DNA from: Sinohyriopsis cumingii
Taxonomy: Eukaryota > Mollusca > Bivalvia > Unionida > Unionidae
Length of the DNA: 64,000 nt
NCBI GenBank assembly: GCA_028554795.2
Contig: CM068826.1
Span: 103,291,602 to 103,355,601, forward strand
Reading direction: 5' to 3'
In this document: one piece after another, positions 7,074-26,576 of the stretch
How the letters are laid out: each line of letters begins with the position of its first letter
Numbering within the stretch: the first letter of the stretch is position 1
Notes under the pieces: model-generated
Databases searched by the model: none
What the model was told of the DNA's origin: nothing
Seen by the model: the letters and a program-made list of their open reading frames with translations, nothing else
Program-made: the position numbers and the translations under genes

Positions 7074-7089
7074 GGCCCTGAAAAGGGCC
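7074..7089 (-). terminator. Histone-type mRNA 3' stem-loop (SL-A), in left TIR
   Basis: The minus strand reads GGCCCTTTTCAGGGCC: a 6-bp stem with a UUUC loop, identical in form to the metazoan replication-dependent histone stem-loop. It is preceded by ACCCAAA and followed, about 12 nt later, by CGAAAAGAGAT, a purine-rich element like the histone downstream (U7) element. It starts 23 nt after the stop codon of the gene at 7113-7709. Confidence 0.85.
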
Positions 7090-7112
7090 TTTGGGTTTTT
7101 CTTCTTCTTCTT

Positions 7113-7709
7113 TTATCTTCTTAACTTTTTCCAACATCTTCTTAATTTGTCCATCATTCCTTTCTTCTTTTTCTTTTCTGTTTCCGGCAACCAGTCCGGG
7201 TGGCCCATGGCCCTGAACTTCTCTTGGATTTTCATCCAGTTTGTGTTCAGTTTTTCGAATTCATCCTTTTTTCTTCTATTTTCTTCGTCTTTTCTTTCAT
7301 TGGACCACTTTTCTTTGATCTTCTTGACCTCTTTGGTCAGCACATTCCTCATTAGTTCTTCAGCTTTCTTAAGTTTTTCTAACCCCCACTTTGCGAAACA
7401 CCAATCTGTCCATTCTACAACGTCTTCTAAAAAGCACCTTGCACTTGTCACATGATCTATTGCTTCTTTTAACTTACCCACTTTGACATACGGTGGGTTA
7501 ATTAAACCTCTGATTCTCTTCTCCTCATCCTCTATCATTTCTTTCACGATGTTTACGGCTAAGTGCAGGCTGTTTACTTGTCTTGACACGAAGTCTTTTG
7601 TCACTTCATACCTCCATTCCTGTTCAACCCTTTCTGCTACACTCAATCCATCTACCATCCAATACCAACTTCCCATAAGATCGTTGTATAAAGCTGAAGC
7701 TGCTGACAT
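7113..7709 (-). CDS. Polinton accessory protein 1, coiled-coil, 198 aa
   Basis: Family not recognised. The product is 198 aa, highly charged and predicted alpha-helical from its heptad-like pattern. The N-terminal half has several Trp (YWMVDG, WRYEV, WTDWCF), and the C-terminal half is a Lys/Glu-rich coiled coil ending in a basic tail (KKKKKG...RRCWKKLRR). It starts with an ATG about 55 nt downstream of a TATA box (7761-7767, minus strand) and two copies of the GGACGTGAAGG promoter element. It ends 23 nt before stem-loop SL-A inside the left TIR. Outermost gene on the left side, reading toward the terminus. It shares promoter sequence but no obvious protein similarity with the next two genes. 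Confidence 0.75.
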   Translation of the reverse strand: MSAASALYNDLMGSWYWMVDGLSVAERVEQEWRYEVTKDFVSRQVNSLHLAVNIVKEMIEDEEKRIRGLINPPYVKVGKLKEAIDHVTSARCFLEDVVEWTDWCFAKWGLEKLKKAEELMRNVLTKEVKKIKEKWSNERKDEENRRKKDEFEKLNTNWMKIQEKFRAMGHPDWLPETEKKKKKGMMDKLRRCWKKLRR

Positions 7710-7760
7710 CTTCTTGTTTGCTTATTCCGTAGAATGAGCTCCAATGGCCAACACTATTAG

Positions 7761-7872
7761 TTTTATACTGAAAGTGCGGACGTGATGGAAAACATCCCCC
7801 CTAAAAAACATAAAATTGATCTTACCTAGATCATGACCCAATAACGCGCGGACGTGAAGGAAAACATCCCCC
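7761..7872 (-). promoter_or_regulatory. Promoter of accessory gene 1: TATA plus two copies of a shared element
   Basis: On the minus strand a TATAAAA lies at 7761-7767. Upstream are two copies, 7776-7800 and 7848-7872, of an element whose plus-strand core is GGACGTGA(A/T)GGAAAACATCC. The stretch between them (CATAAAATT...CCTAGATCATGAC) is repeated upstream of the next gene at about 8591-8629, so this is a duplicated promoter cassette. Confidence 0.75.
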
Positions 7873-7980
7873 TACTTTTTCATTTCATATAATATAACCC
7901 CAACTATTCTCTTCACATACTCTAAGAAACCCATAATCTACTTTATCACTTACAAACACAAACACACAATCACACAAACA

Positions 7981-8100
7981 CTTACGCTCACATTTTTTAA
8001 AGAAAGAGTTAGTGTTTATATTCACACTACTCTACCTACACACATTGGCAAATCGATCGTTATTTCTTTTCTAGAGTATTGGGTAGCCCTGAAAAGGGCT
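7981..8100. repeat. Intra-element duplication: 3' region of accessory genes 2 and 3
   Basis: About 120 bp here closely matches 8846-8968. Shared blocks include GAGTTAGTGTTTAT, CACACTACTCTACCTAC, CACATTGGCAAAT and TTATTTCTTTTCTAGAGTAT, ending in the stem-loop. Together with the shared promoters this shows that the accessory genes arose by tandem duplication of whole promoter-gene-stem-loop units. Confidence 0.85.
8085..8100 (-). terminator. Histone-type mRNA 3' stem-loop (SL-B)
   Basis: The minus strand reads AGCCCTTTTCAGGGCT with flank ACCCA immediately 3', exactly the flank seen in histone mRNAs. TAGAAAAGAAAT follows about 13 nt later. Only the outermost stem pair differs from SL-A (A-U for G-C). 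It starts 29 nt after the stop codon of the gene at 8130. Confidence 0.85.
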
Positions 8101-8129
8101 GTTTTGTTTGGAACTTCATGGGCACCTGG

Positions 8130-8492
8130 TTAATGGTGGCACCTTCCAGGCCTGGCGCCACATACGCATCTTATCCCCCAGTTACTTTTTACCTTTTGGG
8201 GGGAGAGAGCAGAGGCAGGATATGTCGCTTCAGAATCCCAATTTTCGCTCTCTGGGATTTTGAAATTTCTTCTCTCCTTTTCCTCCTCCTCTTCTTTGTT
8301 TCTTCTTTCCTCTTTATATCTTCTTTCTTCTTCTTCTTTATATCTTCTCTCCTCCTCTTCTTTGTTTCTTCTTTCCTCCTCTCTTATCCTTCCCTCCTCG
8401 ACAATGGCTTCCGCGGCCAGTTCATTTAATATGCGCCTGGCATATTCCAGATGCACATGAAGCTCCAACAGTTTCTCAAGTCTCGTGTTCAT
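8130..8492 (-). CDS. Polinton accessory protein 2, Glu/Arg-rich, 120 aa
   Basis: Unknown family. I chose the ATG at 8492 because the reading frame upstream offers only a TTG and because the paralogous gene 3 starts at the equivalent point. The N-terminal ~25 residues (MNTRLEKLLELHVHLEYARR) align with those of gene 3 (MCSKLAKLNEAYVNLHRVRH). The middle is a degenerate 8-residue repeat of the form (R/E)RR(N/Y)KEEE, so a long charged helix. The C-terminus has a small CVCGARPGRCHH cluster that might bind metal. TATA at 8545-8551 and the shared promoter element at 8560-8584 lie upstream; SL-B lies downstream. Confidence 0.75.
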   Translation of the reverse strand: MNTRLEKLLELHVHLEYARRILNELAAEAIVEEGRIREEERRNKEEEERRYKEEEERRYKEERRNKEEEEEKERRNFKIPESENWDSEATYPASALSPQKVKSNWGIRCVCGARPGRCHH

Positions 8493-8544
8493 TTTTTGGT
8501 GTTGATCAATCAACAAGGGTAGCTGGACTGCCGAACGAGTTTCA

Positions 8545-8660
8545 ATTTATACTGAAAGCGCGGACGTGAAGGAAAACATCCCCCTAATAACATAAAATTC
8601 ATCTTACCTAGATCATGACAAAAAAAAACAACAATGCGCGGACCTAAAAGAAACACTCAC
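8545..8660 (-). promoter_or_regulatory. Promoter of accessory gene 2
   Basis: Minus-strand TATAAAT at 8545-8551, an intact shared element at 8560-8584 (GGACGTGAAGGAAAACATCC core), and a degraded second copy at about 8638-8660. The arrangement mirrors the gene 1 promoter. Confidence 0.75.
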
Positions 8661-8945
8661 TCACTTTTTATGCTACCCATTACTATTTAAAATTTTTTAT
8701 AAATCACTTCAATGGACTATCCACATACTCAAATCAATCCAATCTAACCCCAAATTTACACCTCAAACACTAAGAAAATATATCATTTTAATCTACTATC
8801 CACACCAACTTATTTTTTTAAGCTCTTACTAACACTAACTCACCAACACATACCCTCACATTTTTAATAGCAAGAGTTAGTGTTTATTTTCACACTACTC
8901 TACCTACTCACATTGGCAAATTAATAGTTATTTCTTTTCTAGAGT
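8661..8945. other. AT-rich spacer between accessory genes 2 and 3
   Basis: No reading frame of note. Its right part (from about 8846) is the duplicated copy of the 3' region at 7981-8084. Confidence 0.7.
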
Positions 8946-8952
8946 ATTGGGT

Positions 8953-8968
8953 AGCCCTGAAAAGGGCT
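8953..8968 (-). terminator. Histone-type mRNA 3' stem-loop (SL-C)
   Basis: Minus strand AGCCCTTTTCAGGGCT followed by ACCCA and then TAGAAAAGAAAT, as in SL-B. It starts 30 nt beyond the stop codon of the gene at 8999. Confidence 0.85.
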
Positions 8969-8998
8969 GTTTTTTTGTTTTGCTATGGCGTTCTTTTT

Positions 8999-9358
8999 TT
9001 AGTTTCTAAGAATGCGATGTCCTCTGAGGATAGACTTTCTGGCAATAGGTCTGCTTCTTCGGAAAGAGAAGAAGAACTCTTTGGTGTCGATACGGCAATC
9101 GACAAAGCCTCTGTCAGGTTCAGGTTGCTGCTGCTGCTGTTCTTGTTGTTGCTGTTGCTGCTGTTTTTGAAGTCTGTACTTCTCTGTCCATTCTTCTTTT
9201 TCCCTGTTCACTTCTTCTCTGAAGAGCTCTTCTATTAGGTCTTCAGTGATTTTTAACATTCTCACATTCTCTATTTCTTCTGGCTTCGGTATCAGACTGT
9301 GTCTGACCCTATGCAAATTCACGTAGGCTTCGTTGAGCTTAGCTAGTTTGGAGCACAT
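8999..9358 (-). CDS. Polinton accessory protein 3, poly-Gln, 119 aa
   Basis: Paralogue of accessory protein 2 at the N-terminus (MCSKLAKLNEAYVNLHRVRH), followed by a charged helical region and a CAG/CAA-encoded Gln tract (two runs of Q interrupted by E). The C-terminus is basic and Arg-rich (FRRSRPIARKSILRGHR). I used the ATG at 9358, which aligns with the start of gene 2; the frame extends upstream only to a TTG. A shared promoter element lies at 9426-9450 and SL-C lies downstream. Function unknown. Confidence 0.7.
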   Translation of the reverse strand: MCSKLAKLNEAYVNLHRVRHSLIPKPEEIENVRMLKITEDLIEELFREEVNREKEEWTEKYRLQKQQQQQQQEQQQQQPEPDRGFVDCRIDTKEFFFSFRRSRPIARKSILRGHRILRN

Positions 9359-9425
9359 CTTCTTAGGAGGATGAGTCGACAATGGATGGTTAGACTGGGA
9401 ACAAACCGGTTCTTAAAGTTAAAGC

Positions 9426-9450
9426 GCGGACGTGAAGGAAAACATCCCCC
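9426..9450 (-). promoter_or_regulatory. Promoter element of accessory gene 3
   Basis: Intact copy of the shared element with plus-strand core GGACGTGAAGGAAAACATCC. There is no strong TATA. A weak minus-strand TTTAAG lies at about 9414-9419. Confidence 0.65.
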
Positions 9451-9669
9451 ACACGGTTTTTCTAGCCGCAACGTTCATGAGAGAGATAGTAAGAAATGAA
9501 AGAGCATCAATCCAACATTCTTATAGCTAAACAAACCACAAAAGCATTTTTTTCAAAACACAACATTTTTTTATTCAAAAATCACTTAACACTTAACAAC
9601 AACATTTCTAACATTTTTAACAATAATCCAACACTATAACATCAAACAATTTTTTTCTCAATGGACAAT
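9451..9669 (-). other. 3' noncoding region of the protease/capsid block with AATAAA
   Basis: AT-rich. A minus-strand AATAAA lies at 9570-9575, about 95 nt beyond the stop codon at 9670. There is no histone-like stem-loop here, so the core genes appear to use ordinary polyadenylation. Confidence 0.6.
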
Positions 9670-10593
9670 CTACTTTAAACAGGGCTGACAACGTTGTGAA
9701 TGAAATTGTGATTTCCACTGTTGGAAATCATTAGGCCATTGATGGACACTACGTTTCCTAGCTTGAGACAAAAGATAAGCATAATGGTCACAAAACCATC
9801 GATCTACTTTCACATCATTTCTAGCAGAAGAACGAGGATCGAAATGAGTCACTAAATGTTCTAAGCAATAGCCCAGGCTGCGATGATGCAGAAAATACAC
9901 ACAGTACTGTCCACACACCAAGGAATCTGTGCCTTGTAATTTCACATTATTGAATCGGGTGGTTTGAGCATTTCTTCTCATAAAGTCAATGATATCGTCT
10001 TCCAAAGGGGGCAATCCGTACGAATCGAAATATTCCACACATCCTTCTTGAGGAAAGTAAACGGCTACCCAGTGGGTAATAAAGTTCCCAGGTATCCATT
10101 TGTGTTGTTTTCTTCTTCACAGGTAATAATAAGTCATCAATTCGATCCTGACTTTTTGCTTGAAAATGTCTGACGAATAAACGGTTATTCGTTCTGTTTC
10201 CTCACTCTGATTTAGGAGAGCTTCGATACGATGGATCTCTTGAGTGGTTAATGGTGGACAAGAATGTTCACGCAAGTCTTTATACCACTGGTGCAACACG
10301 TCTTTGTTCGAGATGAGACTCCAAGCTTCGTCCAGATACTCGTCCAATTTTTCTTCTTGACTCAACATCAGGCATTTATCGTGTTGAATTTGACTGGGAT
10401 GATCGTTTTGACATCCATAACAATTTTTCTTGATCAATTCCGTCATTTTGTCAACCAAGTGTTTGGCAAAACAGGAGACTAAATGGGCTTCTTGTTCTGG
10501 CCATCTCGACTTCATCATGATCACTTCTTCTTTTTCCTCACATTCCATCTCCAAAGTTTCTCCACTAGGTAAAGAGGGACAACAGTCTTCCAT
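9670..10593 (-). pseudogene. Cys-rich protein fused to adenain-like cysteine protease (PRO), one in-frame stop
   Basis: The frame starts at an ATG at 10593, meets TGA at 10117-10119, and stays open in the same frame to 9670 (308 codons in all). The first half has a Cys/His cluster (CYGC then HPSQIQH) of unknown role. The part after the stop carries the adenovirus-protease-type catalytic triad in order: His in HWVAVYF, an acidic residue in VEYFDSYG, and Cys in VCGQYCVYF. Such proteases mature capsid proteins in Polintons. The N-terminal edge of the protease domain seems to lie before the stop (VYSSD), so the stop would remove all catalytic residues. Either one gene broken by a nonsense mutation, or two adjacent genes with the second lacking a visible start. 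The first is favoured. Confidence 0.75.
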
Positions 10594-10598
10594 GGTTT

Positions 10599-11897
10599 CT
10601 AGTAATCTAGGATGACTTCTCTCAAACTGTTGATTTCTATGGTATTATCGAATTCTGCATACAGGATGACGTTCACTGTCTCTTTCAGTGGTTCTGCAAA
10701 CTGAAGTTCCACACGAATCTGGCCTGATTTTATGGGGTGGAAATGTCCCTCGTCGCTGCCTTGGTCTGGAGTGAAATCGAAAGCCCACAAAGCGTAGCCT
10801 CCTGCATAATCCTCGTACGTAATACCGTGACTGGTGTTGGTTCCTAACTGTCCGGTGGCTTCGTACAGGGACAAGTACGATCTCAAGTAATTCTTCTCTT
10901 TAAAGTCAGGTTCGAAAGGTCGGGTACACAAGGTTTTGCCATCGCGACTGACTTCGATTTTCTTCACGTTAAAGTGTTGACAGTTGAAAGGATTTTGAGC
11001 GAAGGCTCCGTTGAAGGCTGAATTCGAGACCATACCAAGGATCAAACGTTTGGGTAGCTGTCCTTGGAACAGATGATCTTCGATCATGGAATGATGTCCA
11101 ACGGGAATGGTGAACGTTTTCACTTCCACGCGTCGTATGGGATACTTGGCGGTCGTTCTGCTCAACGTTTGACTGATGTCGTTACCTACTTTGGGTAACA
11201 CTTCCACGCGTCGTACGTAGAGTTTGGCCTCTTCGATTTTGCTTTTAGGAGCCTTAGCATTATCAGCCAACAAATGGAAAGCGGTACTGCTACGATTCAG
11301 TCTCAAGCGGACATTGACTCCGTTCAGCAAATATTTCTCTTGCAACCACATGTCCAAATGCAAACGATCCATCAGTTCTAAACTCTTCTTATCTAAGATT
11401 TTGAGTTCTCTTTGCTCAAAGCCGCTATTGGTTCCATCTACAAGGTCGAACTTGCCCGCTTCGTCAGGTTCCCACAGCACACAAGCATTGAGATGGGTAT
11501 CCTTGGCATCTATTCCGTACGTCAAGAGATTTTCCAGGTAGGCACGGTAAGGGTAAGTATCCATGCTGCTGCTGACCAGTTTGTTATTCAAGTACAAGTC
11601 CACTCCACTAAACAATGAATGCATGAAATTGTTGACGGGAGCTATATTCTCAGTGTCATCTACTGCACCATCATCCTTATCTAGAACTTTGACTTTCAAG
11701 TACAAGTAACTGCTATTCAGATCGATGTAATCTTCGGGCTGTCCTTTGATTTCAAACTCGATGGGAGCTGAGGCTGTCAATGAGGAGACGGGATGAAATT
11801 CCACCCACTGAGATTCTTGCATCGTCATCATGGTGGGGGGCATGGCAAACAGATCCAGTTCCGTCTTGGAACAAGCGCAAGACTCTCGGTGCATCAT
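10599..11897 (-). CDS. MCP: Polinton major capsid protein (double jelly roll)
   Basis: About 432 aa, intact. Features of the Polinton/adintovirus major capsid family include an early EFEIKGQPEDYIDLNSSYLY segment, VNNFMHSLFSGVDLYLNN, a YPYRAYLENLL stretch, and a late GGYALWAFDFTPD motif. The conserved FNV/VRVEL beta-strand pattern runs to the C-terminus. The protein builds the icosahedral shell. I used the ATG pair at 11892-11897, because the open frame upstream has only a TTG. It begins 14 nt after the pX-like gene ends and is followed within 5 nt by the protease gene. No lesion found. Confidence 0.9.
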   Translation of the reverse strand: MMHRESCACSKTELDLFAMPPTMMTMQESQWVEFHPVSSLTASAPIEFEIKGQPEDYIDLNSSYLYLKVKVLDKDDGAVDDTENIAPVNNFMHSLFSGVDLYLNNKLVSSSMDTYPYRAYLENLLTYGIDAKDTHLNACVLWEPDEAGKFDLVDGTNSGFEQRELKILDKKSLELMDRLHLDMWLQEKYLLNGVNVRLRLNRSSTAFHLLADNAKAPKSKIEEAKLYVRRVEVLPKVGNDISQTLSRTTAKYPIRRVEVKTFTIPVGHHSMIEDHLFQGQLPKRLILGMVSNSAFNGAFAQNPFNCQHFNVKKIEVSRDGKTLCTRPFEPDFKEKNYLRSYLSLYEATGQLGTNTSHGITYEDYAGGYALWAFDFTPDQGSDEGHFHPIKSGQIRVELQFAEPLKETVNVILYAEFDNTIEINSLREVILDY

Positions 11898-11911
11898 TTT
11901 TTCTCTGTGTT

Positions 11912-12328
11912 TCAATAATCGAAAACGTCTAAGTCTCGAACGGTTCTTCTTTTCTTGGCCTTTCTCGCTTGAAGTCTGGTGAAAGGGTGTTTTCTTCGTC
12001 GTCTCTTTCTGCCTTGTCCTTGCTGAATGCCTGACTCGGTAGCGTGCAGAACATTTATAGGTGTGTCTCGTCGGCCCAAAATGTCTTTGCCCGTTTGCAG
12101 CAAGACATTTTTGCCAGCCCTCATGAAGGCTTCTTTAGGGTTTTGTTTGTCGATGATGACATTTTGGAGAAATTCTTTGCCTTGCGTCAGTGCCGCATCT
12201 TTCAAGGCGTGCAATCCGCGTGTCACCATCGGTTTCAAGACTGGGGCCACCGAACGAAAGGCCGATTTTAACATGTCTCCTAAGCCGTGTCCTCGCTGTC
12301 GTGCAACCCCTCGGTACACTGGATACAT
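11912..12328 (-). CDS. pX/protein VI-like basic virion protein, 138 aa
   Basis: Begins with a hydrophobic/amphipathic segment (GLGDMLKSAFRSVAPVLKP) and ends with a strongly basic tail (GRKRRRRKHPF, ARKAKKRR). A gene of this plan between MCP and penton is usual in adintovirus-type Polintons, where it is compared with adenovirus core protein X or membrane-active protein VI. The role in genome condensation or membrane disruption is inferred from layout only. A TATA-like TATAAAA lies on the minus strand at 12423-12429 within the upstream gene. Confidence 0.65.
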   Translation of the reverse strand: MYPVYRGVARQRGHGLGDMLKSAFRSVAPVLKPMVTRGLHALKDAALTQGKEFLQNVIIDKQNPKEAFMRAGKNVLLQTGKDILGRRDTPINVLHATESGIQQGQGRKRRRRKHPFTRLQARKAKKRRTVRDLDVFDY

Positions 12329-12335
12329 GACTTAC

Positions 12336-13271
12336 TTACGAGTCGTGAGAAAACCGTTTTCGAAAATGGAGTTTCACCGTGACTTTTCCTTTGGTGAATG
12401 GAATATTTTGTCCTAAATCTCCTTTTATAGTAATGTTGACCGTGTCCAAATACGATTTGCTGACCGGTAAATAGTGAGGATGGACAAATTCGCGGTGGAC
12501 GTGATAAGTGTTTCCACCTTCCTCGTCAGCGTTCGTGGCAGAATCCACTTTGAAAGGAATGACACGCAGTAACGGCACAGAGGTGTGTCCCACCACGTTA
12601 TACTCCACCACATCGGAATAAACGAACATCAAATTTAGTCCTTGGTTCAGTTCTACCGGGGTACGAAAATACTTGGCAAAAGTATCGTTGTCAGAAATGA
12701 CTAGTAATTCGCCTTTTTGTTGTTCTACTTTCTTCCTCAGCTCCATGTCACCGCCCAACATGTCAAACAATTCAGGACAAAATAAGAAAGACATGATTTT
12801 GGGCCCCTCAGGAAATTTTATCAGGAAGCGACGAGCTGTTTTGTGGTACTCCAGGGTGACACTTTTTTTGACACTTTCCAAAGCTTTCAGAAACACACTA
12901 TTAAACCTGGTGGCTATGGTGTTGACCAAATGTTGACCACTAAAATAATAGCCTGGGGGAATGAACAAGTGATAGGTGGTCCACTTTAGATTTGGTGTAC
13001 GGGTTTTCTTGTCATATTTGCTATGGGTATCCAACTACTGTTGCATTTGTTCGTCATGAACTTCCACATCAAATTTATTTTGATTGGGAAGGACATTGAG
13101 GACTTGGGTCGGGTGAATCATTTCTACTAAAGCCACTTCCCAATGGACTTCGTGATCTAAAGGGATGGCTTGAGGTAATTTGGCCGTGTAACAGCACAAC
13201 GTGTTATTGGGAAACACCTCCATGGAACTGTCACTGGGTAAGGTCAAGTAAAATTGGTTTTCGTGACTCAT
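12336..13271 (-). pseudogene. Penton (minor capsid) protein, one in-frame stop
   Basis: Starts at an ATG at 13271 that overlaps the membrane-protein stop by 4 nt. The N-terminal ~78 codons carry the typical Polinton penton opening (FYLTLPSDSSMEVFPNN, then WEVALVEMIHP). A TAG at 13035-13037 interrupts, and the frame continues without shift for another 233 codons, including IPPGYYFSGQHLVNTI and a typical C-terminal strand region ending HFRKRFSHDS. There is no ATG near the start of the second part, so the stop probably abolishes full-length protein. Single jelly-roll vertex protein by family. Confidence 0.85.
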
Positions 13272-13678
13272 AATTCTAGAGTTCTGTGGCTGTCCGAGGG
13301 GATATTACTGGACGTCAGAGGCGTGTCTCCGCCCAAAATGGGGTTCTGGTTGTTGTTGGAGTGGTGACTGGCACTGGCACTGGACACAACGTTCCCGTTC
13401 GAGGAGAATTTCAGGGAGGGATTGGGAAGCAGGTAACCGATGCAACTGCTCAATAAAATGGTCCACAATTGTTTGTCTCCTTGTTGCAAACTCAAATTGG
13501 CGATGGCTGCCCCGATGACACAATACACCACGAAGATTTGGCAGAAAAAGACGATTTGCGTTTTAGGCACACATTCTCCACACCACAGCCACAAGGGTTG
13601 TTTTTGTAAATCTTGCACAGAAGAACTAGGGGAAGAAGGAGTGGTCGACGTAGCTGCGTCTGATGTGTGAAAGGGCAT
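13268..13678 (-). CDS. Polinton membrane protein, 136 aa
   Basis: Two hydrophobic segments (IVFFCQIFVVYCVIGAAIA and LWTILLSSCIGYLLP) follow a short N-terminus with a CGECVPK motif. The C-terminus is Ser/Asn-rich and polar. A two-span protein with this GYLLPNP motif commonly sits between penton and integrase in adintovirus-like elements; its role is unknown, perhaps assembly or entry. ATG at 13678 preferred over an upstream GTG. It overlaps the penton ATG as ATGA. A minus-strand TATAAAAAG lies at 13693-13702 inside the integrase 3' end. Confidence 0.8.
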   Translation of the reverse strand: MPFHTSDAATSTTPSSPSSSVQDLQKQPLWLWCGECVPKTQIVFFCQIFVVYCVIGAAIANLSLQQGDKQLWTILLSSCIGYLLPNPSLKFSSNGNVVSSASASHHSNNNQNPILGGDTPLTSSNIPSDSHRTLEL

Positions 13679-13683
13679 GATGG

Positions 13684-14796
13684 TCACTTCTTCTTTTTAT
13701 AGTCGATGACTTGCGAAGCGTCGATCCAAGAATCGAAACTGGGTGGATATCCTTTCCAACGTACTTTGACTTCTTTGACACGTCGTTTGCCCACTTTACG
13801 GGTTCTGCGTTCGAGAATGCTTTCGATGTCGTACACGTCGTCTTCTTTTTTGGTGACACGTTGTAACTCGGGCAAATAAAACGTTCCTTTGAGTACTTCT
13901 CCGTTCATGTCTTCCAATTTATAAACGGCAGGATGACGGCCATGCACTCGTCCAGTGACGCGAAACAATTCGGTCGTCCAGTTAGGTAAGTAACCTTTGT
14001 CGAAAGTGCGTTTGGTTTTGCCAATGCGCACCCAATCTCCTACGGTCAACTCTCCACTTTTCTCGGGGACAGCCCTCGTCGGGGACGTACCAAACAGACG
14101 CTCAAACACCAGCACTTCGTTGTCGGGAGTCACGTCTTGCGGGGCACGTCCGATGCTTCGATGGTAAGATTGGTTGTACGCTTGCACCAGGTGCGGTAAG
14201 ATGTCGATGTACTTCAGAGTGTGGTGATGCGTAAAATATTTCCACATGCGTTCTTTCAAAGTACGTTGAAAACGTTCCACGATGCTGGCTTTGGTTTCGG
14301 GATTCTCGGTGGTAAAAAAATGAATGTCACGTTTCTTTAATTCTTTTTGGAAAGCTTGGTTCAGAAATTCGGTGCCTTTGTCCGTTTGCCATCGAAGAGG
14401 GTGACGACCGCTTTGTTTCAACACCCGTTGCAGGGCTCGCACTAACTCGCTGCTCGATTTGGAAGTCAAGGGCACGACCCAAGCAAATTTGGAAAAGACG
14501 TCGATGACACAGAACAAATATTTGTAACCACGATTGTAGCTGGCCAAATGAGAGACATCGGCTAAATCGGCTTGCCATTGATGATCGATGCCTTCCACTC
14601 GGGTGCGACTTCTGGCAAACTTGCGTCGAATGGGTTTGTGTAAAGTGTAGGTAGCTTGTTCTTGTAACCATCGTTGCACTTGAGGTAAACGGAGACTTTT
14701 CAGTCGCGTTTTGGCAGCACGATACAATTTTTGAACTCCTGCGTAACCTGCAGGATGCGAGGGATCGTAGTAAATGCTGGCTGAGACTTTTTCCAT
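13684..14796 (-). CDS. INT: Polinton integrase (DDE, rve superfamily) with C-terminal chromodomain
   Basis: 370 aa, open throughout. The N-terminal ~75 residues hold the Polinton INT entry region (YYDPSHPAGYAGVQKLYRA, then a YTLHKP motif). The catalytic core shows D in WQADLADV, D in TDKGTEFLN and E in TKASIVERF, the D,D-35-E pattern of retroviral-type integrases. The C-terminus carries a chromodomain: YDIESILERR, VRWKGYP, then DSWIDASQV. The chromodomain probably steers integration to marked chromatin. The enzyme generates the 6-bp duplication seen here. Confidence 0.95.
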   Translation of the reverse strand: MEKVSASIYYDPSHPAGYAGVQKLYRAAKTRLKSLRLPQVQRWLQEQATYTLHKPIRRKFARSRTRVEGIDHQWQADLADVSHLASYNRGYKYLFCVIDVFSKFAWVVPLTSKSSSELVRALQRVLKQSGRHPLRWQTDKGTEFLNQAFQKELKKRDIHFFTTENPETKASIVERFQRTLKERMWKYFTHHHTLKYIDILPHLVQAYNQSYHRSIGRAPQDVTPDNEVLVFERLFGTSPTRAVPEKSGELTVGDWVRIGKTKRTFDKGYLPNWTTELFRVTGRVHGRHPAVYKLEDMNGEVLKGTFYLPELQRVTKKEDDVYDIESILERRTRKVGKRRVKEVKVRWKGYPPSFDSWIDASQVIDYKKKK

Positions 14797-14811
14797 TTTT
14801 GTGTTGGTGTG

Positions 14812-17810: not shown

Positions 17811-17817
17811 GAATGTT

Positions 17818-18582: not shown

Positions 18583-19045
18583 AGCTGCCTGTTTTTATAG
18601 TCTCTTTGTTTCGAAAAGAATACACGTACTTTCTAGCCAGTGATGTTCGTTTTCCAGTGGGGAATGTAAATCTTGCATACTGTAACCGAAACGTCAGAGT
18701 TCGATTAGAAGTTTCCTCTTCCGCTAAGTAGATTCCACGTAAAATATGTTGGTAATCCTTTACCTCGTCTTCCTCAATGGGTTGCTCTAGGTGAATCTCG
18801 AAGTAACCAAAATGATCAACACGTGAATCATCGGGGGCCTGGAAGTATTGAACAAGGTCTGACCACTGAAACAATTTCTGACGAATCAGTTCTCTTATAC
18901 CCTTCAGGTACCAGTGGTTAAAGATCTGGTGACGTAACGGATGCAATTGTTCTTTACGTTTCACTTGTATTTTGACCAGCTCTCGGTAAATGCGTTCTCT
19001 CAACTCCACAGGCAAAGCACGAATGTTCTCTTGTAAAGTATCCAT
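18527..19045 (-). CDS. Duplicated accessory protein, F-box-like N-terminus, copy 1
   Basis: 172 aa. The first ~50 residues are nearly identical to the neighbouring gene at 19058-19513 (shared MDTLQENI, ALPVELRERIYRELVKI, KRKEQLHPLRH). The LP-x-EL-x-x-x-I-x-x-x-L spacing resembles an F-box, which would link targets to a ubiquitin ligase, but the match is short. The rest diverges between the copies apart from short shared motifs (EE-T..NR.T/ERI). Spacing to the second copy is 12 nt. Confidence 0.65.
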   Translation of the reverse strand: MDTLQENIRALPVELRERIYRELVKIQVKRKEQLHPLRHQIFNHWYLKGIRELIRQKLFQWSDLVQYFQAPDDSRVDHFGYFEIHLEQPIEEDEVKDYQHILRGIYLAEEETSNRTLTFRLQYARFTFPTGKRTSLARKYVYSFRNKETIKTGSYATTYVVCNPTDSVEGTQ

Positions 19046-19057
19046 GAATAGGTCATA

Positions 19058-19513
19058 CTAAATCCTCTTTGGTCTGACACAAGAAATGTACTCTTTGCAC
19101 AAACATGGTTTCACTTCAGTGTCGAATTTAAATCGTTGAGTCACTAATCTACACATTACAATTCGTTCAGAAGTTTCCTCTTTCACTAAGTTGACATTGT
19201 GTTCAAGATGTTGGTAATTCGTTAACTCTTCCTCTGGAATTCGATGCAGTACGTTTACAATGATGTAACTACAATCGTCCATACCAAACCAATCCTTTTT
19301 AAAACTAGAGGATCGTTGATCAATGTCTGTCCGATGGAACACTTTCAATTGAATCAATCCTTGTATAGCTTTCAGGTACCAGTGGTTCAAACACCGGTGA
19401 CGTAACGGATGCAATTGTTCTTTACGTTTCACTTGTATTTTGACCAGTTCTCGATAAATGCGTTCTCTCAACTCCACAGGCAAAGCACAAATGTTCTCTT
19501 GTAAAGTATCCAT
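19058..19513 (-). CDS. Duplicated accessory protein, F-box-like N-terminus, copy 2
   Basis: 151 aa, the tandem paralogue of the gene at 18527-19045. The 5' ~150 nt are almost identical in DNA while the 3' two-thirds are strongly diverged. That suggests either gene conversion of the 5' end or strong constraint on the N-terminus with fast change behind it. It lies directly downstream of the BIR gene (28-nt gap). Function unknown. Confidence 0.65.
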   Translation of the reverse strand: MDTLQENICALPVELRERIYRELVKIQVKRKEQLHPLRHRCLNHWYLKAIQGLIQLKVFHRTDIDQRSSSFKKDWFGMDDCSYIIVNVLHRIPEEELTNYQHLEHNVNLVKEETSERIVMCRLVTQRFKFDTEVKPCLCKEYISCVRPKRI

Positions 19514-19541
19514 GAACAGATTATTATGGTAAGAAGTTACT

Positions 19542-20285
19542 TCAATGTCTCGGTCCCACTAAGGGTAAGTAATGACAATTCGGTGACCATCGAGCATGTT
19601 CTACGTAGGCCGAATCTTGCGGTTCCCAGTGGTGAAGTGACACACCGCAACTGAAGCACTTGACTTTATCTCCTTCGCCCAAGTAGAAAAATCAGGCTCT
19701 GGCTAATTCTTCGGGGGTCGGTCCTCCCAGATACTTTGGCCATTTTCCTTTGAACGATTGAAGACGATTTTCAAAGTCGCAGTATTCCGACAAACGCACA
19801 GGAAACGAATATTCGTTTTTCACAGGTTCGTTTCGATGAGGGTTGGGTGACAGGAACAGGAGTTTGCTCAGGGCTGGATGACATCCGTAGGGGGGTAGAC
19901 GTGAAGGTGAACATTCCCCTTTAAAACGAAACCCAGTAAAATGTCCAAGAGGACGAGCGGCATCACTTTCGCATCCCACAGGTTTGACACGAACAGCATC
20001 ACTTTCCATGATAGGGGTAGGGGCACTAAAGTTCCCATGATGCTTTACGGCATCGCTCAGGTCACAAGGTACAGCATCGTACCCATCGCAAGGCTCACAA
20101 TCGCACTCGTCTGCAAACTCCGTTACGCAATTACAATGGTAACCACATGGACAATCGCAGTTTCCTTCCGGACATTTTCCGTCGCAATGCATGGGTCTTA
20201 TCCATCCAGTATTAGTCACACTAGAGGAAGATACAACTTTTTTACAATCCCCAAACTGGAACGATGCCTCTTTCAAAGTATTCAT
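19542..20285 (-). pseudogene. BIR-domain (IAP-like) protein with Cys-rich N-terminus, one in-frame stop
   Basis: The frame runs from the ATG at 20285 to a TGA at 19692-19694 and continues in frame to a second stop at 19542-19544. The N-terminal part is Cys-rich (CDGKCPEGNCDCPCGYHCNC). The C-terminal ~95 codons form a baculovirus-IAP-repeat domain: RLQSFKGKWP, then PEELARA just before the stop. After it come FFYLG and the zinc-ligand spacing C-x2-C-x16-H-x6-C. The stop replaces the usual Gly of the A-G-F-F/Y motif, a one-base GGA-to-TGA change. BIR proteins of viruses typically block host cell death. A TATATAAA-type box lies at 20341-20350. Confidence 0.85.
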
Positions 20286-20330
20286 CTTGTTCGCTCGGTC
20301 TTGGTAGTCACAATGAACTATCGATCTTCC

Positions 20331-23300
20331 CTAGGGTTCCTTTTTTATATACAGACCAATACCGACGTGACCGTACGGCAACGTAAAGTGATTGGGAAGT
20401 CGAACTCGTTTCTGGTATACAATTTGATAGACTTTTTCCAAGGGTCGACTGACGATGTGGTGAGTGGGTAAACGTACAATCTTGTTCGGTTGATAAGTGG
20501 TCACTTTAAAGTTTCCATCCTCTCCCGATTGCAAGGCTTCTTTCAATACCCCAAAGTTGACCACTCGACTGGTACGATGATTCAGAGTCAGTCCTTTCAC
20601 TTTGCACGTCGTGTGCACTTCTCCTTGTTTGTCCCGGTATTCGTAGCCGTAATTTTTGGGACCGCCACTGACGAAACTTAGAATCTTGTCGTCGGGATGC
20701 TCGTCTGTCCAGGCTCCTAAACGGTCTCCTTCGATGTCAGGGTGATGTTGAATCGGGTGATGGATGTAAATGCAACTGTCCGTGTCAAAGTACAGGACGC
20801 GTTCTTCTAACAGTTCTAAAGCTTCGTACAATTTTAAGCGAGCATGAGCTGTCACGTAAGCCGCAATGATGACATTTCCAAAAGGGTCGTCTTGTACAAA
20901 GTCCAGATCTTCTTCGTAATTGACCAAGATCAAATCCTCTCGAATGACGTCCACGTGTTTCATGTATTTGGTTTTGTCGTGAATCATCTGGAAGTAGCGG
21001 AAAGGTTCTGTCAAATATTCCGTCTTGGGTAAACACGGTCGTTGTGCCATTTTACCCCACAAGCAATTTAACATCACTTTGGCAAACGATCGCCTGCTTT
21101 CGTTTTTTTCGATGTGGTCTAAAGAGATGCCTTCTTGTTCGTAGTATTTCTCTTTGAATTTTATTTGCTCTTCGGGAGTGTGACACCAGGAAGGATAGCC
21201 GCTGGCTTCTTGCTTCAGTTTCAAAAAGGCATCCACGTAGTCGGCGAAAATGCCTTTCTGAGTAGGGTCACCCTTGTGGTACTGTTGTGTCTTGGGAAAG
21301 TGGCAAATTTCGTACACTTCTAACAGTTGGTATCCCATGTCCAGAGCTTTGAACAATTCTACGCTGACCCAGGTTCCCGTCAAGTCACGTTCTTCCTGGG
21401 TATGCTGACAAGGTTGGTCTTGGTTGCACGTTTCGGCACAAGTACGGCACAATGGAAACATCAGTTTGCCTTGACAATGGTGAGGTAAGACGGGATGGTA
21501 TAGGTTCGTGGGAGGCAAAACTTTACACTTGATCAAGCCTTCGTATTGTCGAATGTTGACCAGGTCGATGTGTTCCGTCAACAATTGCGGGTGCCCTGTA
21601 GGAAAGCGACAATATTTGCACACGTAGGGATACAGCGAACACACGTCCAAGTATTTGATTTCTTCTCCTTTCTCTTCGTCGGCTTGGTACAGCAAACAGG
21701 TGGCATTGGTCCTTCCTCCGTACAAACTATCCCTCGGGTTCAACGGGTCCATGAACTGGTAACTTTCCACGAGGCGTTTAAACTCGGGATCGGTTTTCAT
21801 ACGGTGATCGTACTCGTGTTCCCACATTTCCACCACTTGGTATCCTTGCTGTTCTAACTTTAGGCGTCGCTGACAAGTGTCCTGGTACAGGTCTTCCATG
21901 GTTCGTTGCAAAAATTGATTCTTGGTGCCACGGTCAGGGTAACAGACGGGACATCCGTGAAATAAGCAACCGTTAAACTCGTACACGATCTTGGGGTTTT
22001 CTAAGTCCCAGCCATCGACCGAATACGTTCCGATGGTCTTTTCGCCCCCTCCGTTGCGGGCATGCTGAATCCACTTGTCTTCCTTGTCGCACAAGTAATG
22101 TAACCAACGTAGGGCTTTGACCGAGTATTGACGTTTGACAAAGTGGGTCGTTTGAGGACTGATGACAGCCACGGTCTTTTCAGGCATGAATCGTTGTCGA
22201 TACACTAAGGAACACGCTTTGGCAATGGTGCAAGCTTCTTTCAAAGGATCGACCCCTCCGTGTTCCATGAACAGTTCTCGAAATTTTCCACAGCAACGCC
22301 GTAAAATGTCCACGTCGGAACGACAATACTTTAGCATTTCTTCCTGAAAGTCGAAAGGGTCCGAGGCGTGAATCTGGTACCAAGCGTAGAAAGCTTCTCG
22401 TTGTTCGGTACGCATGTTGTCGGGGTCGTAATAGTGAGCCTCTGGTAAATGGGGTAGAACGGCGTGTTGATTGGCTTCCGTATTGAAAAAGTGTGGAAAG
22501 TACCCTTTAGCCATTTCTGTCATTCCAAACGTTTTAGGCATTCGACTCAAAGGCATGGCCAAATAGCTCATCGAATCTTTAAACTGTACTTGTCCCACTT
22601 ACATGAAAATGATTTTGGCTCCGTTCAAAGTCACTTTTGGACGTTCGGTGCCTTGTTCCGTATAGTACCTCAAAAGAAACTGTCCATCGTATCCGGAGAA
22701 ATTGTGAGCCATCACCGTGGCATGGCGATGACAATCTCCGTAAAGTTCGATGTCCTCTTGGCTCCACGTCTTGTCGATGGGGTCTAAGACCCATTGGGCA
22801 AAATCGGCTAACGTGTTCGGTCCCCGAAAGATTTTTTCACGTCCTCCAGGAATCTTGCTGCAGTGAGGGCAATGACTGAAGATAGGTTCTTGAATGCACT
22901 TCTCGCACACTCGATGAGCCACGCAGAAATTAGGAATGTGAATGCCGGTCTCTTGCATGCATTCAAAATCGAAAAAGATGAAATTGCCTTTCTTCTTGTG
23001 ACCATCCTCTTTCTCTGGTGGGGGTTGGTATTTTTGCACGTAACATTGGTGTTCCAAGTCCACGATGTGGTGACAAATGTGACATTTTTTCTTTCCTCGA
23101 CATACGTGTGCCTTGGTACTATTGGTACGTATGACTTGTTCACACGTAGGGCACAATCTCAGGAGTTGACAAGCACATTTCTTCTGTGAACCTTGCGTTT
23201 TCAGATGTTGTTGGTAACAGGTAGGGCTGACAAACGTGCGCAGACAAGTTGAACAAGGCACTGGTTCTTCGCTCAGACAGGGTTGAGAGGCCAAACATCC

Positions 23301-24385
23301 TGAGCATTTCCATCCACAATGCTTGTGTTGCTCTCGATTATTATAACCATAGTCACATTTCTCACAATAATAACCGTATCCCAGGAATCCGGTGATACTG
23401 GTAATGGTATCGAAATGGTCATCGTGATGATAAACATGAATGTATTTTCCGTCCTTAAAATCTTGGCCTCGAAACAATAGGGGCCGCGCATTTCTTGAGG
23501 GTGCACTTTCAAGGTGTAGCGTGGAGCTAGGGCATCTTGCAATTTTTGCATCTCAGGAATGCCGCAGGGTGTGTCTTTGGGCAGTCCGGCTTGTTGTAAC
23601 AGGAGTTCTGCTTCGTTTCGTTGTTTGGCTCGGTCGGAACGTTGAATAGTGTCCCAGGTTCTTTTCCATTCTACCGTGTCGTTCTTGTTGGCATAGGTTC
23701 GTCCCACCACGATGGCACGGGCTAAACACATCTGGTCATGAGGGTTGTGAATTCGGACGAGACTCGTTTTGGTGTTGCGAAGGTCGTCCACCAATAACAT
23801 CTTTTTGCGTCCTGTCCCTTGAGGAGGAGAGACGTGGGTCATGTCCAGTGTGGTTTTACCATCGGTGATGTCAAACTGATCATTAGATTGTTGCACGTGT
23901 TGAATCTTGTCCATGACTTTGGAAGCAGTCAATTCTGCAGGGGTGCTAAACTCGATCCAAACAGGGGATTTCAAACCGTCGTGTTGTATGGAAAGTCTCA
24001 AGCGATCGTCTTCTTTGGGTTGACATTGTCGCTTGAGTGCAGTGAGCAAAGAATCCCACACCTCGGTGATGAACACTTCTGCTTTCTCTAACGGCACTTC
24101 AGCCTTGAAATCTTTAAACTTCACCGTGTATTTGTAAGCCGTGGTTCTAAATTTTCTAGAGGAGCGCTTTTCCGTCTCTCGAATGGAATAGTACTTTTCA
24201 GGGTTGACAAAGGGTGGTGGACTTGGTTTAGAGGGTTCGGATTCTGGTTCACTCATGTCCTCTTCAAAATCACTGGCATGAATTTGTGCCAAGATTTCAG
24301 CCCTGGTACGAGGCGATAGATCACGTTTCTGCCTCTTACTTCTTTCTTCTTCTTCTTTCTTCTCGAATGAATGGGATCGTTTCAT
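20331..24385 (-). pseudogene. PolB: Protein-primed DNA polymerase B (PolB), one in-frame stop and one frameshift
   Basis: About 1,350 codons. The N-terminal ~300 residues (ATG at 24385) include the Polinton-type SPPQGTGRKKM and CLARAIVVG stretches. A one-base frame change occurs near 23470-23485. Next come a multi-Cys zinc-binding region and the exonuclease motifs (Exo I FDFE, Exo II NFSGYDGQF), then a TAA at 22599-22601. The frame continues without shift through Exo III (YCRSDVDIL), SLYP (motif A), KVMLNCLWGK (motif B) and YFDTDS (motif C), then KNYGY. It replicates the element from protein-primed ends. The stop separates the exonuclease from the polymerase domain, so this copy is probably inactive. 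Confidence 0.93.
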
Positions 24386-24519
24386 CTTGAAAGCAAAAAG
24401 TCAAATGACTCAAGTTCAAACACCATAAGCTACTTTATAGTCATAGCAGACCAGCGTATATAAAAGGGTGTGTGTCTTGTCCTTTCACTATTCATTTCAC
24501 TCTCAAGCCGAGCACAACG
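24386..24519. promoter_or_regulatory. Divergent promoter between PolB and the zinc-knuckle gene
   Basis: A TATA box for PolB lies on the minus strand (TATAAAG, 24433-24439). One for the rightward gene lies on the plus strand (TATATAAAAG, 24457-24466). Both sit 40-60 nt from their ATGs. Confidence 0.75.
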
Positions 24520-24978
24520 ATGGAAGAGACTAACCAGATGGAACGTTTCGTCAGAGCTTTGCGAGGGGTCATTAGAAAATTCTCTTCAGACCAGCCTACG
24601 GACTACTCTCCTTCCTTTAGAGACAAAAGTCAAGATACTTGCTATATCTGTCAGAAGAAAGGGCATTGGTCTTCAGAGTGTCCAGACCGTCAAACAAGAA
24701 CAAAAACAGGGACTAAAAAAGACAAAAGTCAAGATACCTGTTATTATTGTAAAGAAAAAGGACATTGGTCTCCAGATTGCCCAAAAAAGAAACAAGAGGA
24801 GTCAGAAGAAAAGAGGAATTCTTCAGAAGAAGAGAGGGATTCTTTAGAGGAAGAGAGGGATTCTTCTGAGGAAAAAAGACAATTCTATTTACAAGAGGCA
24901 AAGAAACAGGAGAAGAAAAGAAGAAGGGAAGAAAATGAGGAAAAGACGGTGAAGAAATTTAAAAAACAGAGAGAGTAA
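24520..24978 (+). CDS. Two-zinc-knuckle (CCHC) nucleic-acid-binding protein, 152 aa
   Basis: ATG at 24520 chosen because the TATA box at 24457 places transcription start near 24490, downstream of the frame's earlier ATG. Two retroviral-type knuckles follow a short helical N-terminus: CYICQKKGHWSSEC and CYYCKEKGHWSPDC, each preceded by DKSQDT. This unit duplication sits at residues ~45-60 and ~78-92. The C-terminal half is Glu/Ser/Lys-rich and ends basic, with a likely nuclear signal (KKFKKQR). Its position beside PolB suggests a single-strand-binding or replication role. It is the only long gene on the plus strand, with an AATAAA 77 nt past the stop. Confidence 0.85.
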   Translation: MEETNQMERFVRALRGVIRKFSSDQPTDYSPSFRDKSQDTCYICQKKGHWSSECPDRQTRTKTGTKKDKSQDTCYYCKEKGHWSPDCPKKKQEESEEKRNSSEEERDSLEEERDSSEEKRQFYLQEAKKQEKKRRREENEEKTVKKFKKQRE

Positions 24979-25054
24979 ACAAGGAGAAAGAAGAAGTCAA
25001 TGAACTTTATATTAAAGTGTTGTGTTGTGAATTGGATTGTAAAAAATGGAGAAA

Positions 25055-25060
25055 AGAATA
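25055..25060 (+). terminator. Poly(A) signal AATAAA of the zinc-knuckle gene
   Basis: Perfect AATAAA followed by a GT/T-rich stretch (GGTAAGTGCCTTTGAGTTGTG). It contrasts with the stem-loop ends of the neighbouring genes. Confidence 0.7.
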
Positions 25061-25219
25061 AATGAATGATAAAAGGTAAGTGCCTTTGAGTTGTGATTTT
25101 AAAATAAGAAGCTACACTCACGCACTCATACACAGACACGTACTATAAGGGTAAAATGGGTGGTTTTTTTATGAGTTATTGGCAAATTGAAATTGTATTT
25201 CTTTTCGAGAAATGTGGGT

Positions 25220-25235
25220 GGCCCTGAAAAGGGCC
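25220..25235 (-). terminator. Histone-type mRNA 3' stem-loop (SL-D)
   Basis: The minus strand reads GGCCCTTTTCAGGGCC preceded by AAAAA and followed by ACCCACA, the closest of the five to a canonical histone mRNA end. CGAAAAGAAAT follows 12 nt downstream. It starts 26 nt after the stop codon at 25262. Confidence 0.88.
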
Positions 25236-25261
25236 TTTTTCTTCATGGTGAAGGGGTGAGT

Positions 25262-25834
25262 TTAAGCAATCAACTTTAACTGCCTTATGCCTTTGCCACG
25301 GCCAAGGCCTACTTCTGGACTGCGTAATGATGATGATGATTGAGTTGAAATCACTAAGGGTGGTACGGTAGGCTTAGTCACAGGGTTGACGTGTTTAGCT
25401 CGGGAAGGTCGTATTCTCTTCGGTCGTAATAAAGAAGTCTGATACATTTGTTTCAGACTTATTAACTCCGCTAAAATGTCCAACAGTACCGTGACCGTTT
25501 GATTTTCACCCTCTTGTTTCTTTGCTGCTGCTACTTCTTCTTCTTGCTGTTGTTTTTTTCTTACCTCTTCTTCTTGTTGCTGTTGCTGTAGGAGAAAAGC
25601 CTGTTCCGCTTCCTTTTGTCGTTGTATAAATTTCTCCAATTCTTCTTTCTGTCTCTGTCTAAAATTCTCCACTTGCGGTAATGAAGAAGGTAACGAAGGT
25701 TCCGGAACAAATTCTTGCGAGGAGAGAAAATCCACAAAATCCCAATTCACCTCTTCTGAAAGTAAGTCCGAGTTCCCTTGGGCAGTCTCCCCTGCTGGTG
25801 CACCCCAATGGATTGTTTTCTGAGTTTCCGTCAT
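25262..25834 (-). CDS. Polinton accessory protein 4, Gln/Glu-rich coiled coil, 190 aa
   Basis: Not recognised. The acidic/hydrophobic N-terminus is followed by WDFVDFLSSQEF and a Gln/Glu coiled coil (residues ~55-110). A Leu-rich helix (VTVLLDILAELISLKQMY) and a basic Ser-rich tail (RPKRIRPSRAKHV, GRGKGIRQLKL) complete it. The Q/E tract recalls accessory protein 3 but I see no clear alignment. ATG at 25834, ~50 nt downstream of a TATA-like CTATATAG with a CRE-like TGACGTCA beyond it. It ends at SL-D. Confidence 0.75.
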   Translation of the reverse strand: MTETQKTIHWGAPAGETAQGNSDLLSEEVNWDFVDFLSSQEFVPEPSLPSSLPQVENFRQRQKEELEKFIQRQKEAEQAFLLQQQQQEEEVRKKQQQEEEVAAAKKQEGENQTVTVLLDILAELISLKQMYQTSLLRPKRIRPSRAKHVNPVTKPTVPPLVISTQSSSSLRSPEVGLGRGKGIRQLKLIA

Positions 25835-26053
25835 GTTGAATCACTGTCGCATAGATTGACTGCACACAAGCGCTAGCGAATCTATATAGACTACGTGACG
25901 TCACAGACTGCACTCTTCGGATTGGATGCGGGCTGACTGAATTCTGTAACGCGTGTTCGGATTGGTGAATGAACTCAATCCGTTTCAATCCTTCCTGTCC
26001 CTATAAATAAGCGCCGTTCACTGCATTGATTCACCTATTCTCGGAGCCTCAAC
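25835..26053. promoter_or_regulatory. Histone-pair-like divergent promoter
   Basis: Serves the leftward gene at 25834 and the rightward gene at 26054. Minus-strand TATA-like CTATATAG at 25882-25889; palindromic TGACGTCA at 25896-25903. Two minus-strand CCAAT boxes lie within a repeated TTCGGATTGG (ATTGG at 25921-25925 and 25961-25965). A plus-strand TATAAATA lies at 26002-26009. CCAAT plus paired TATA boxes between divergent, stem-loop-ended genes is the layout of metazoan H2A-H2B pairs. Confidence 0.7.
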
Positions 26054-26284
26054 ATGTGGACAGACGTTGAATCTTCAATCCTTGTGTCAACAATGATGTT
26101 CAGGACGGACATGCTCATGTATGTCCGATCCAAGTGGACCGTTGTCCACAGGACCAACAGCAGCCTGTGGATAAGAAGAGTCTATATAGAGAGACAAGGT
26201 TGCCTCAAGAGGACTCTGATGTATGGCCCTGCTGTAAGACGAAGTTTGAGGACAAGAAGATGTCGCAAATGCCCTTTATGTTAA
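26054..26284 (+). CDS. Polinton accessory protein 5, Arg/Cys-rich, 76 aa
   Basis: A short frame supported by its surroundings: TATAAATA 45-52 nt upstream, ATG in the context CAACATGTGG, and a histone-type stem-loop 22 nt after the stop. The protein is basic, with a C-terminal RTRRCRKCPLC that could bind metal or nucleic acid. No family recognised. The DNA contains several short inverted repeats (for example GTGGACCGTTGTCCAC). A structured noncoding RNA therefore remains possible. Confidence 0.55.
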   Translation: MWTDVESSILVSTMMFRTDMLMYVRSKWTVVHRTNSSLWIRRVYIERQGCLKRTLMYGPAVRRSLRTRRCRKCPLC

Positions 26285-26301
26285 GGGCATATTAACATAA
26301 A
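26275..26301. repeat. Perfect 10-bp inverted repeat over the stop codon
   Basis: TTTATGTTAA (26275-26284, containing the TAA stop) pairs with TTAACATAAA (26292-26301). It ends exactly where the right TIR begins and 5 nt before the stem-loop. An overlapping alternative hairpin GCCCTT...AAGGGC uses 26271-26288. Confidence 0.8.
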
Positions 26302-26576
26302 CCAAAGGCCCTTTTCAGGGCCAGCCATATTTCTCGAAAAGAGATAGCCTTTCCATTGCCTACCCTTTTTTTAAAAAATTTTTTTAAAAAAAAAATTCCA
26401 TGTTAAATTCCCCTTGTCCGTAGAGTATCCCACGATTTTTTGCCATGTTAAATTCCCCTTGTCCGTAGAGTGTCCCACGATTTTTTGCCATGTTAAATTT
26501 CCCTTGTCCGTAGAGTGTCCCAGGGGTGTTTTTAATGCTAATTCCCATTGTCCGTAGGGTATCCCCATTTACTACT
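26302..26576. repeat. Right terminal inverted repeat
   Basis: 275 bp, the inverse complement of 6820-7094 with about three differences. It ends ...CCATTTACTACT and abuts the target duplication AACAAG. Confidence 0.95.
26307..26322 (+). terminator. Histone-type mRNA 3' stem-loop (SL-E), in right TIR
   Basis: Plus strand GGCCCTTTTCAGGGCC, preceded by ACCAAA and followed by AGCCA and CGAAAAGAGAT (26335-26345). It is the mirror copy of SL-A and ends the rightward gene at 26054-26284. Confidence 0.85.

Follow-up and report, generated by a model that had tools for sequence, protein, structure and literature searches.

Element and five short genes with histone-type 3' ends

The window analysed here is a stretch of 64,000 nucleotides (nt) from the genome of the bivalve Sinohyriopsis cumingii (assembly GCA_028554795.2, contig CM068826.1, positions 103,291,602 to 103,355,601 of the forward strand), and all coordinates are counted from its first base. 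It contains one Polinton at 6820-26576 (19,757 bp). The element has terminal inverted repeats (TIRs) and a 6-bp target-site duplication, and it encodes a family B DNA polymerase (PolB), an integrase and an A32-like ATPase, the last with a score just under the Pfam cut-off. Five short accessory genes, a to e, are each followed by a hairpin of the form that ends replication-dependent histone mRNAs and by a purine core resembling the histone downstream element (HDE). The ends of the element, the five genes and their 3' signals are as follows.

6814-6819, unstranded: left target-site duplication AACAAG, same six bases as 26577-26582
6820-7097, unstranded: left TIR, 278 nt, 99% complementary to the right TIR; holds the gene a hairpin
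7054-7060, minus: GAAAAGA, HDE-like core of gene a
7074-7089, minus: gene a hairpin, in TIR, 23 nt past the stop; Histone3 35.6 bits (7049-7094)
7113-7709, minus: gene a, 198 amino acids; no Pfam family over the cut-off, two homologues without a function name
8065-8071, minus: GAAAAGA, HDE-like core of gene b
8085-8100, minus: gene b hairpin, A-U first pair, 29 nt past the stop; Histone3 31.0 bits (8060-8105), below the gathering score
8130-8492, minus: gene b, 120 amino acids; coiled-coil-like by eye
8933-8939, minus: GAAAAGA, HDE-like core of gene c
8953-8968, minus: gene c hairpin, A-U first pair, 30 nt past the stop; Histone3 31.0 bits (8928-8973), below the gathering score
8999-9358, minus: gene c, 119 amino acids; Q/E-rich by eye
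25181-25192, minus: second block TTTCAATTTGCC of gene d, 7 nt past the HDE core; like a block in host H2B and H2A
25200-25206, minus: GAAAAGA, HDE-like core of gene d
25220-25235, minus: gene d hairpin, 26 nt past the stop; Histone3 41.2 bits (25196-25240)
25262-25834, minus: gene d, 190 amino acids
26054-26284, plus: gene e, 76 amino acids, divergent from gene d; arginine-rich by eye
26299-26576, unstranded: right TIR; holds the gene e hairpin
26307-26322, plus: gene e hairpin, in TIR, 22 nt past the stop; Histone3 35.6 bits (26302-26347)
26336-26342, plus: GAAAAGA, HDE-like core of gene e
26577-26582, unstranded: right target-site duplication AACAAG, same six bases as 6814-6819

The original prediction, made from the letters of this DNA, held that five 16-nt hairpins of exact histone form lie in the element. 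When the 64 kb were searched with the degenerate pattern RGCCCTTTTCAGGGCY, allowing up to two mismatches, exactly these five were returned at the predicted places and strands; all were exact, and shuffled sequences gave 0.04 matches on average. Each hairpin is oriented with its gene, and the measured distances to the stop codon agree with the 22-30 nt that had been proposed. The downstream element, expected 12-13 nt further on, was found as GAAAAGA starting 13 nt past the hairpin in five out of five cases. The 3' flank needed correction: instead of ACCCA or a close form in four, three hairpins have ACCCA and the other two AGCCA.

Scoring with the Rfam covariance model Histone3 (RF00032; gathering score 34), a check that the prediction itself had proposed, gave a divided result. 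Three of the five hairpins passed, and those of genes b and c reached 31.0 bits (E 6.4e-05), below the gathering score. In the latter two, A-U replaces G-C at the first pair of the stem. The second G is kept; PMC10388802 discusses the contact of this base with SLBP Arg181.

The five hairpins cannot be counted as independent, since two lie in the TIRs and those of genes b and c lie in a 145-nt direct repeat (7964-8108 and 8832-8976, 90%); because of these two pairs, about three independent 3' elements serve the five genes. The TIR copy ends different genes at the two ends of the element, gene a on the left and gene e on the right. Next to these hairpins, the interiors of the TIRs (6855-7040 and 26360-26541) contain extended runs of A/T and copies of about 45 nt arranged in tandem.

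The 3' ends resemble those of metazoan replication-dependent histone genes (RF00032) in the 6-bp stem, the 4-nt loop, the A-rich 5' flank, the ACCCA-like 3' flank, the downstream purine core and the short distance from the stop codon. They differ in the genes that carry them, which lie in a mobile element and gave no Pfam histone match at E values up to 0.1, and in the A-U first pair of two hairpins. A protein search with gene e found no homologue.

Host histone genes carry the same 3' unit

A Pfam histone search located the host's tandem histone repeats, which are about 8.3 kb long and contain H3, H4, H2B, H2A and H1. In two of these repeats (L082 and L083), all five histone genes end in a hairpin 27-38 nt past the stop codon. 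The hairpins read GGCCCTTTTTAGGGCC in H3 and H4, GGCCCTTTTCAGGGCC in H2B, GGCCCTTTTAAGGGCC in H2A and GGTCCTTTTCAGGACC in H1, and that of H2B is identical to the hairpins of genes a, d and e. The host core is GAAAAGA (GAAAAGG in H2A) and starts 13 nt past the hairpin, or 14 nt in H2A and H1, so that host and element match in core and spacing. Histone3 gave 19 matches of 35.0-39.4 bits in the host loci L082 to L085, compared with 31.0-41.2 bits for the hairpins of the window. A lone H3-like locus outside the repeats (L087) had no hairpin within 140 nt of its open reading frame (ORF) and no Rfam match. In the repeat locus L084, an ORF of 986 amino acids (ending at 4563) lies between histone genes; by eye, it is perhaps a non-LTR (long terminal repeat) retrotransposon.

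The likeness continues beyond the hairpin. In the TIR copies the core reads GAAAAGAGAT and contains AAAGAG, the purine core named for mouse H2a in PMC7026596. Comparing the sequence past the core between element and host gave 170 matches, a value reached in none of 5000 shuffles (mean 134.7, maximum 160). A second block around TTTCAATTTGCC is common to host and element, and TTGCC or a variant of it ends 18 or 19 nt past the core in 77 of 82 element sites. That the element's signal matches the host's own version of the histone 3' signal is, judged by these sequence comparisons, the most solid part of the case.

Genes a to c share a promoter box with host histone genes

Upstream of genes a, b and c we found a box of the form GGGGGATGTTTTCC[T/A]TCACGTCCGC[G/A]C, twice in the case of gene a.

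7774-7800, minus: promoter box of gene a, of which 7776-7796 (21 bases) match the host H2B box exactly
7846-7872, minus: second promoter box of gene a
8558-8584, minus: promoter box of gene b
8636-8653, minus: TTTCTTTTAGGTCCGCGC, upstream of gene b; all 18 bases recur upstream of host H4
9424-9450, minus: promoter box of gene c

In the host, the box reads ATGTTTTCCATCACGTCCGCGC at -106 of H2B and ATGTTTTCAATCACGTCCGCGC at -104 of H1. H2A has it on the opposite strand with three mismatches, and H4 has the form AGGTCCGCGC, whose 18 bases are those that recur upstream of gene b. Measured against the 22-mer of H2B, H1 and genes a to c each show a single mismatch. For genes d and e, and for nine further upstream regions of the element that do not include that of the polymerase gene, the count is 9-11, about the shuffled mean. 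The box core ACGTCCGC occurs four times in the window, each time inside these boxes. The region between the divergent genes d and e (25835-26053) holds, by eye, TGACGTCA, which is like a cAMP response element (CRE), and CCAAT boxes, not the histone box.

When the element was compared with one histone unit, the H2B box gave the longest non-repetitive shared word, 21 bases. The H4 form followed with 18 and the hairpin with 17, found three times, and after these came a single 16-mer elsewhere. What the two have in common thus lies for the most part in regulatory motifs, an argument against a histone segment having simply been captured. Taken together, genes a to c have host histone signals at either end, and genes d and e at the 3' end only.

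As to the factor that may bind the box, its core resembles the HINFP motif, which makes it a putative site like those of vertebrate H4 promoters, and HINFP is a candidate for the activator. HiNF-P recruits NPAT to H4 promoters, according to PMC5706932.

Copies across the genome

The exact hairpins were counted in the whole genome (2.905 Gb), and all comparisons of copies were made within this one genome. There are 27,794 + 28,403 = 56,197 hairpins, and the reversed control gave none. At five per element, this number corresponds to about 11,200 copies, which, if full-length, would occupy as much as roughly 7-8% of the genome. For an animal, such a Polinton load would be very large. A few of the matches come from host H2B genes. 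The 100 hairpin places listed for contig 1 fall into 29 groups, and by eye at least nine sets show the full five-hairpin order or its mirror image, with varying inner distance.

We fetched 42 loci, which contain 97 hairpin-like sites with up to three mismatches (86 exact, eight with one mismatch and three with three). The core follows at 13 or 14 nt in 89 of the 97 sites. An ORF of at least 50 amino acids ends 18-42 nt upstream of 72 sites and at a different distance from 15; the remaining ten lack one. Histone3 was run on 40 of the 42 loci (L050 and L051 left out) and gave 26 + 22 = 48 matches at the gathering score, in 32 of the 40. The C-termini of the five proteins, where matched, are followed by a hairpin in 4/4 cases for gene a, 18/18 for b, 17/19 for c, 19/19 for d and 11/11 for e, and identity to the proteins of the window ranges from 38 to 100% of amino acids over all matches, partial ones included. 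None of six matched C-termini of the zinc-knuckle gene, a contrast gene of the same element, is followed by a hairpin in these loci. Promoter boxes (up to five mismatches of 27) have a hairpin within 1.2 kb downstream in 60 of 63 cases. At the right end of the element, genes d and e are divergent and both have a hairpin in 17 of 17 ends (16 fetched and that of the window), which were selected for having both hairpins. The expectation that related elements carry the unit was borne out, in that other copies have it at the same place and in the same orientation, though they were fetched by the hairpin.

Core genes and surroundings of the element

The core genes and the zinc-knuckle gene, which is convergent with gene d, are located as follows.

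10599-11897, minus: core-gene protein with 827 homologues; named ones among those listed are mostly bivalve F54H12.2-like
13684-14796, minus: integrase (rve) with chromodomain, core gene; Pfam
17005-17625, minus: core gene for an A32-like packaging ATPase, 22.3 bits against a Pfam cut-off of 22.8
20331-22571, minus: family B DNA polymerase, core gene; E 1.5e-34
24520-24978, plus: zinc-knuckle gene, contrast gene, no hairpin behind it; its stop is followed 79 nt later by AATAAA (25057)

We take the F54H12.2-like protein to have a capsid role; the named animals among the 120 listed of its 827 homologues are all bivalves (Mercenaria, Crassostrea, Ostrea and Saccostrea). The ORF at 9670-9981 resembles an adenain-type protease by eye only and had no Pfam match. 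Two neighbouring short genes of the element (172 and 151 amino acids) hold a tandem duplication (18848-19056 and 19316-19524, 87% over 209 nt). Both flanks of the Polinton contain a repeat that by eye looks like a tRNA-derived short interspersed element (5965-6221, 27656-27912 and 28972-29175).

PolB, the rve integrase with chromodomain, the A32-like ATPase, the TIRs and the 6-bp target-site duplication are shared with Polinton/Maverick and adintovirus-type elements. What sets the present element apart from them are its histone-type 3' ends and histone promoter box; the literature was not searched for such a box in Polintons.

Searches for U7, viral relatives and precedents

Rfam RF00066 gave no match to U7 snRNA, and its controls gave none either. 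The pattern CTCTTT...AATTTGTCTNG matched 59 places versus 92 for its control, and a second U7 pattern matched 13 versus 16. Eight places of the first pattern were inspected by eye and with Rfam, and none of them is U7.

Viral contigs scanned with PolB, with the capsid-type protein and with its profile yielded no relatives. One viral contig that matched the histone-hairpin pattern was rejected as phage-like by eye, with no Rfam match at the gathering score. Among the open-licence papers searched, none joins the histone stem-loop with Polintons, and those listed report no viral or transposon genes with histone 3' ends; the main text of PMC11071296 does not contain the words 'stem-loop', 'hairpin', 'polyadenyl' or 'SLBP'. 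In mimiviruses, too, viral transcripts end in hairpins (PMC4402537). In that system, palindromic hairpins are cut by an enzyme of the virus itself, with addition of poly(A), whereas our element has the host histone form and an HDE-like core.

Discussion

We consider it probable (about 0.8) that this Polinton uses histone-type 3' ends on five accessory genes, whose transcripts are likely cut by the SLBP/U7 machinery without gaining poly(A), and that genes a to c are probably driven by a histone-gene activator, which would tie their expression to S phase or active viral DNA synthesis. The first part follows from the host hairpin form together with the purine core at host spacing, which makes cleavage of the transcripts of genes a to e by host SLBP/U7 likely. 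The second follows from the box shared with H2B and H1, which points to the host activator of those genes. Genes a to c would be transcribed together with the histone genes, SLBP would bind the hairpin, and U7 would guide cleavage between hairpin and core. The resulting mRNA without poly(A) would be stable during DNA synthesis and decay afterwards, so that promoter and RNA end would jointly limit genes a to c either to S phase or to the time when viral DNA is actively made. Actual processing of the RNA is the least certain part. Most sequence tests are in favour of the histone-type 3' ends of the original prediction, and we regard that interpretation as supported.

Several observations weigh against this reading. 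The hairpins of genes b and c are under the Histone3 gathering score, and U7 was not found by the searches described above. The promoter box is absent from genes d and e (11 mismatches of 22) and from host H3. Words shared by chance reached 18 once in 100 shuffled histone units, and 17 in one of four control stretches of the window. The loci were chosen by an exact hairpin, so that the retention rates are biased upward and the copies show order and spacing only. At the right end the conservation of the HDE cores is not exceptional: among 289 noncoding windows of 8 nt, 124 and 83 are equally conserved. Finally, AATAAA lies within 200 nt past 20 of 85 hairpins in the fetched loci and, in the window, at 8883, beyond the gene c hairpin.

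The signals could be passive relics, descended from a single histone 3' end that was captured once and copied within the element, with no present function. Two hairpins are indeed TIR copies and two arose by duplication, many genomic copies probably stem from few active elements, and the test of 8-nt windows showed no special conservation of the core. We nevertheless hold this explanation to be improbable. The upstream sequence varies in the fetched copies (1.6-1.8 bits per column, gene types pooled), yet identity in the columns of the HDE core is 0.94-1.00 for the GGCC class and 0.84-1.00 for the AGCT class, and an ORF ends 18-42 nt upstream of 72 of the 97 sites. Moreover, a separate promoter box accompanies the hairpin, and no long histone segment is shared.

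It is also unlikely that genes a to e are mainly polyadenylated and that the hairpin only terminates transcription or serves as an auxiliary signal. The AATAAA motifs past some hairpins, that of gene c among them, would fit such a role, but 65 of the 85 hairpins have none within 200 nt (signal variants not counted), and the zinc-knuckle gene shows that the element places AATAAA near the stop codon where the hairpin is absent.

That the promoter box is element sequence left in the histone repeat by insertions, rather than a histone promoter motif, would account for the identical 21-mer; we give this very little weight, as the box stands at -106 and -104 of two histone genes, reversed at H2A and in another form at H4, and the shared words stop at the box. 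A DNA-level signal for replication, packaging or transposition in and near the TIRs is hardly credible: two of the five hairpins do lie at the inner TIR ends, but three lie outside, all five are oriented with their genes and followed by an HDE-like core in the RNA sense, and the host histone genes carry the same hairpin-core unit.

Beyond the preferred reading of SLBP/U7-cut accessory transcripts, the arrangement leads us to favour, with some reserve, a broader proposal. The element would be an integrated animal DNA virus with complete mimics of histone genes, in each of which a histone promoter box of HINFP type and a TATA box precede a short intronless ORF with a histone 3' end. Transcription of these accessory genes would accompany that of the histone genes, perhaps within histone locus bodies, and their mRNAs, lacking poly(A), would track DNA synthesis.

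To our knowledge, replication-dependent histone genes are essentially the sole users of the SLBP/U7 pathway. The use of histone-gene signals by a virus-like element is real at the level of sequence, and no precedent for it appeared among the papers listed in the literature searches. An element that copies both ends of histone regulation would show capture of the SLBP/U7 pathway by a parasite. If this is true, the signal in the TIR would be available to any gene arriving at either end of the element, and the 56,197 hairpins may make the element compete with the histones for SLBP and U7. Timing to S phase would fit an element that has a polymerase of its own and would depend on dividing, possibly germline, cells for its spread. 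The finding would also allow other animal DNA viruses to be searched by sequence for genes of this kind, which would be missed in RNA data selected for poly(A). It would hint at the way in which Polintons couple expression to replicating cells, and would provide a handle on when silent-looking elements are active.

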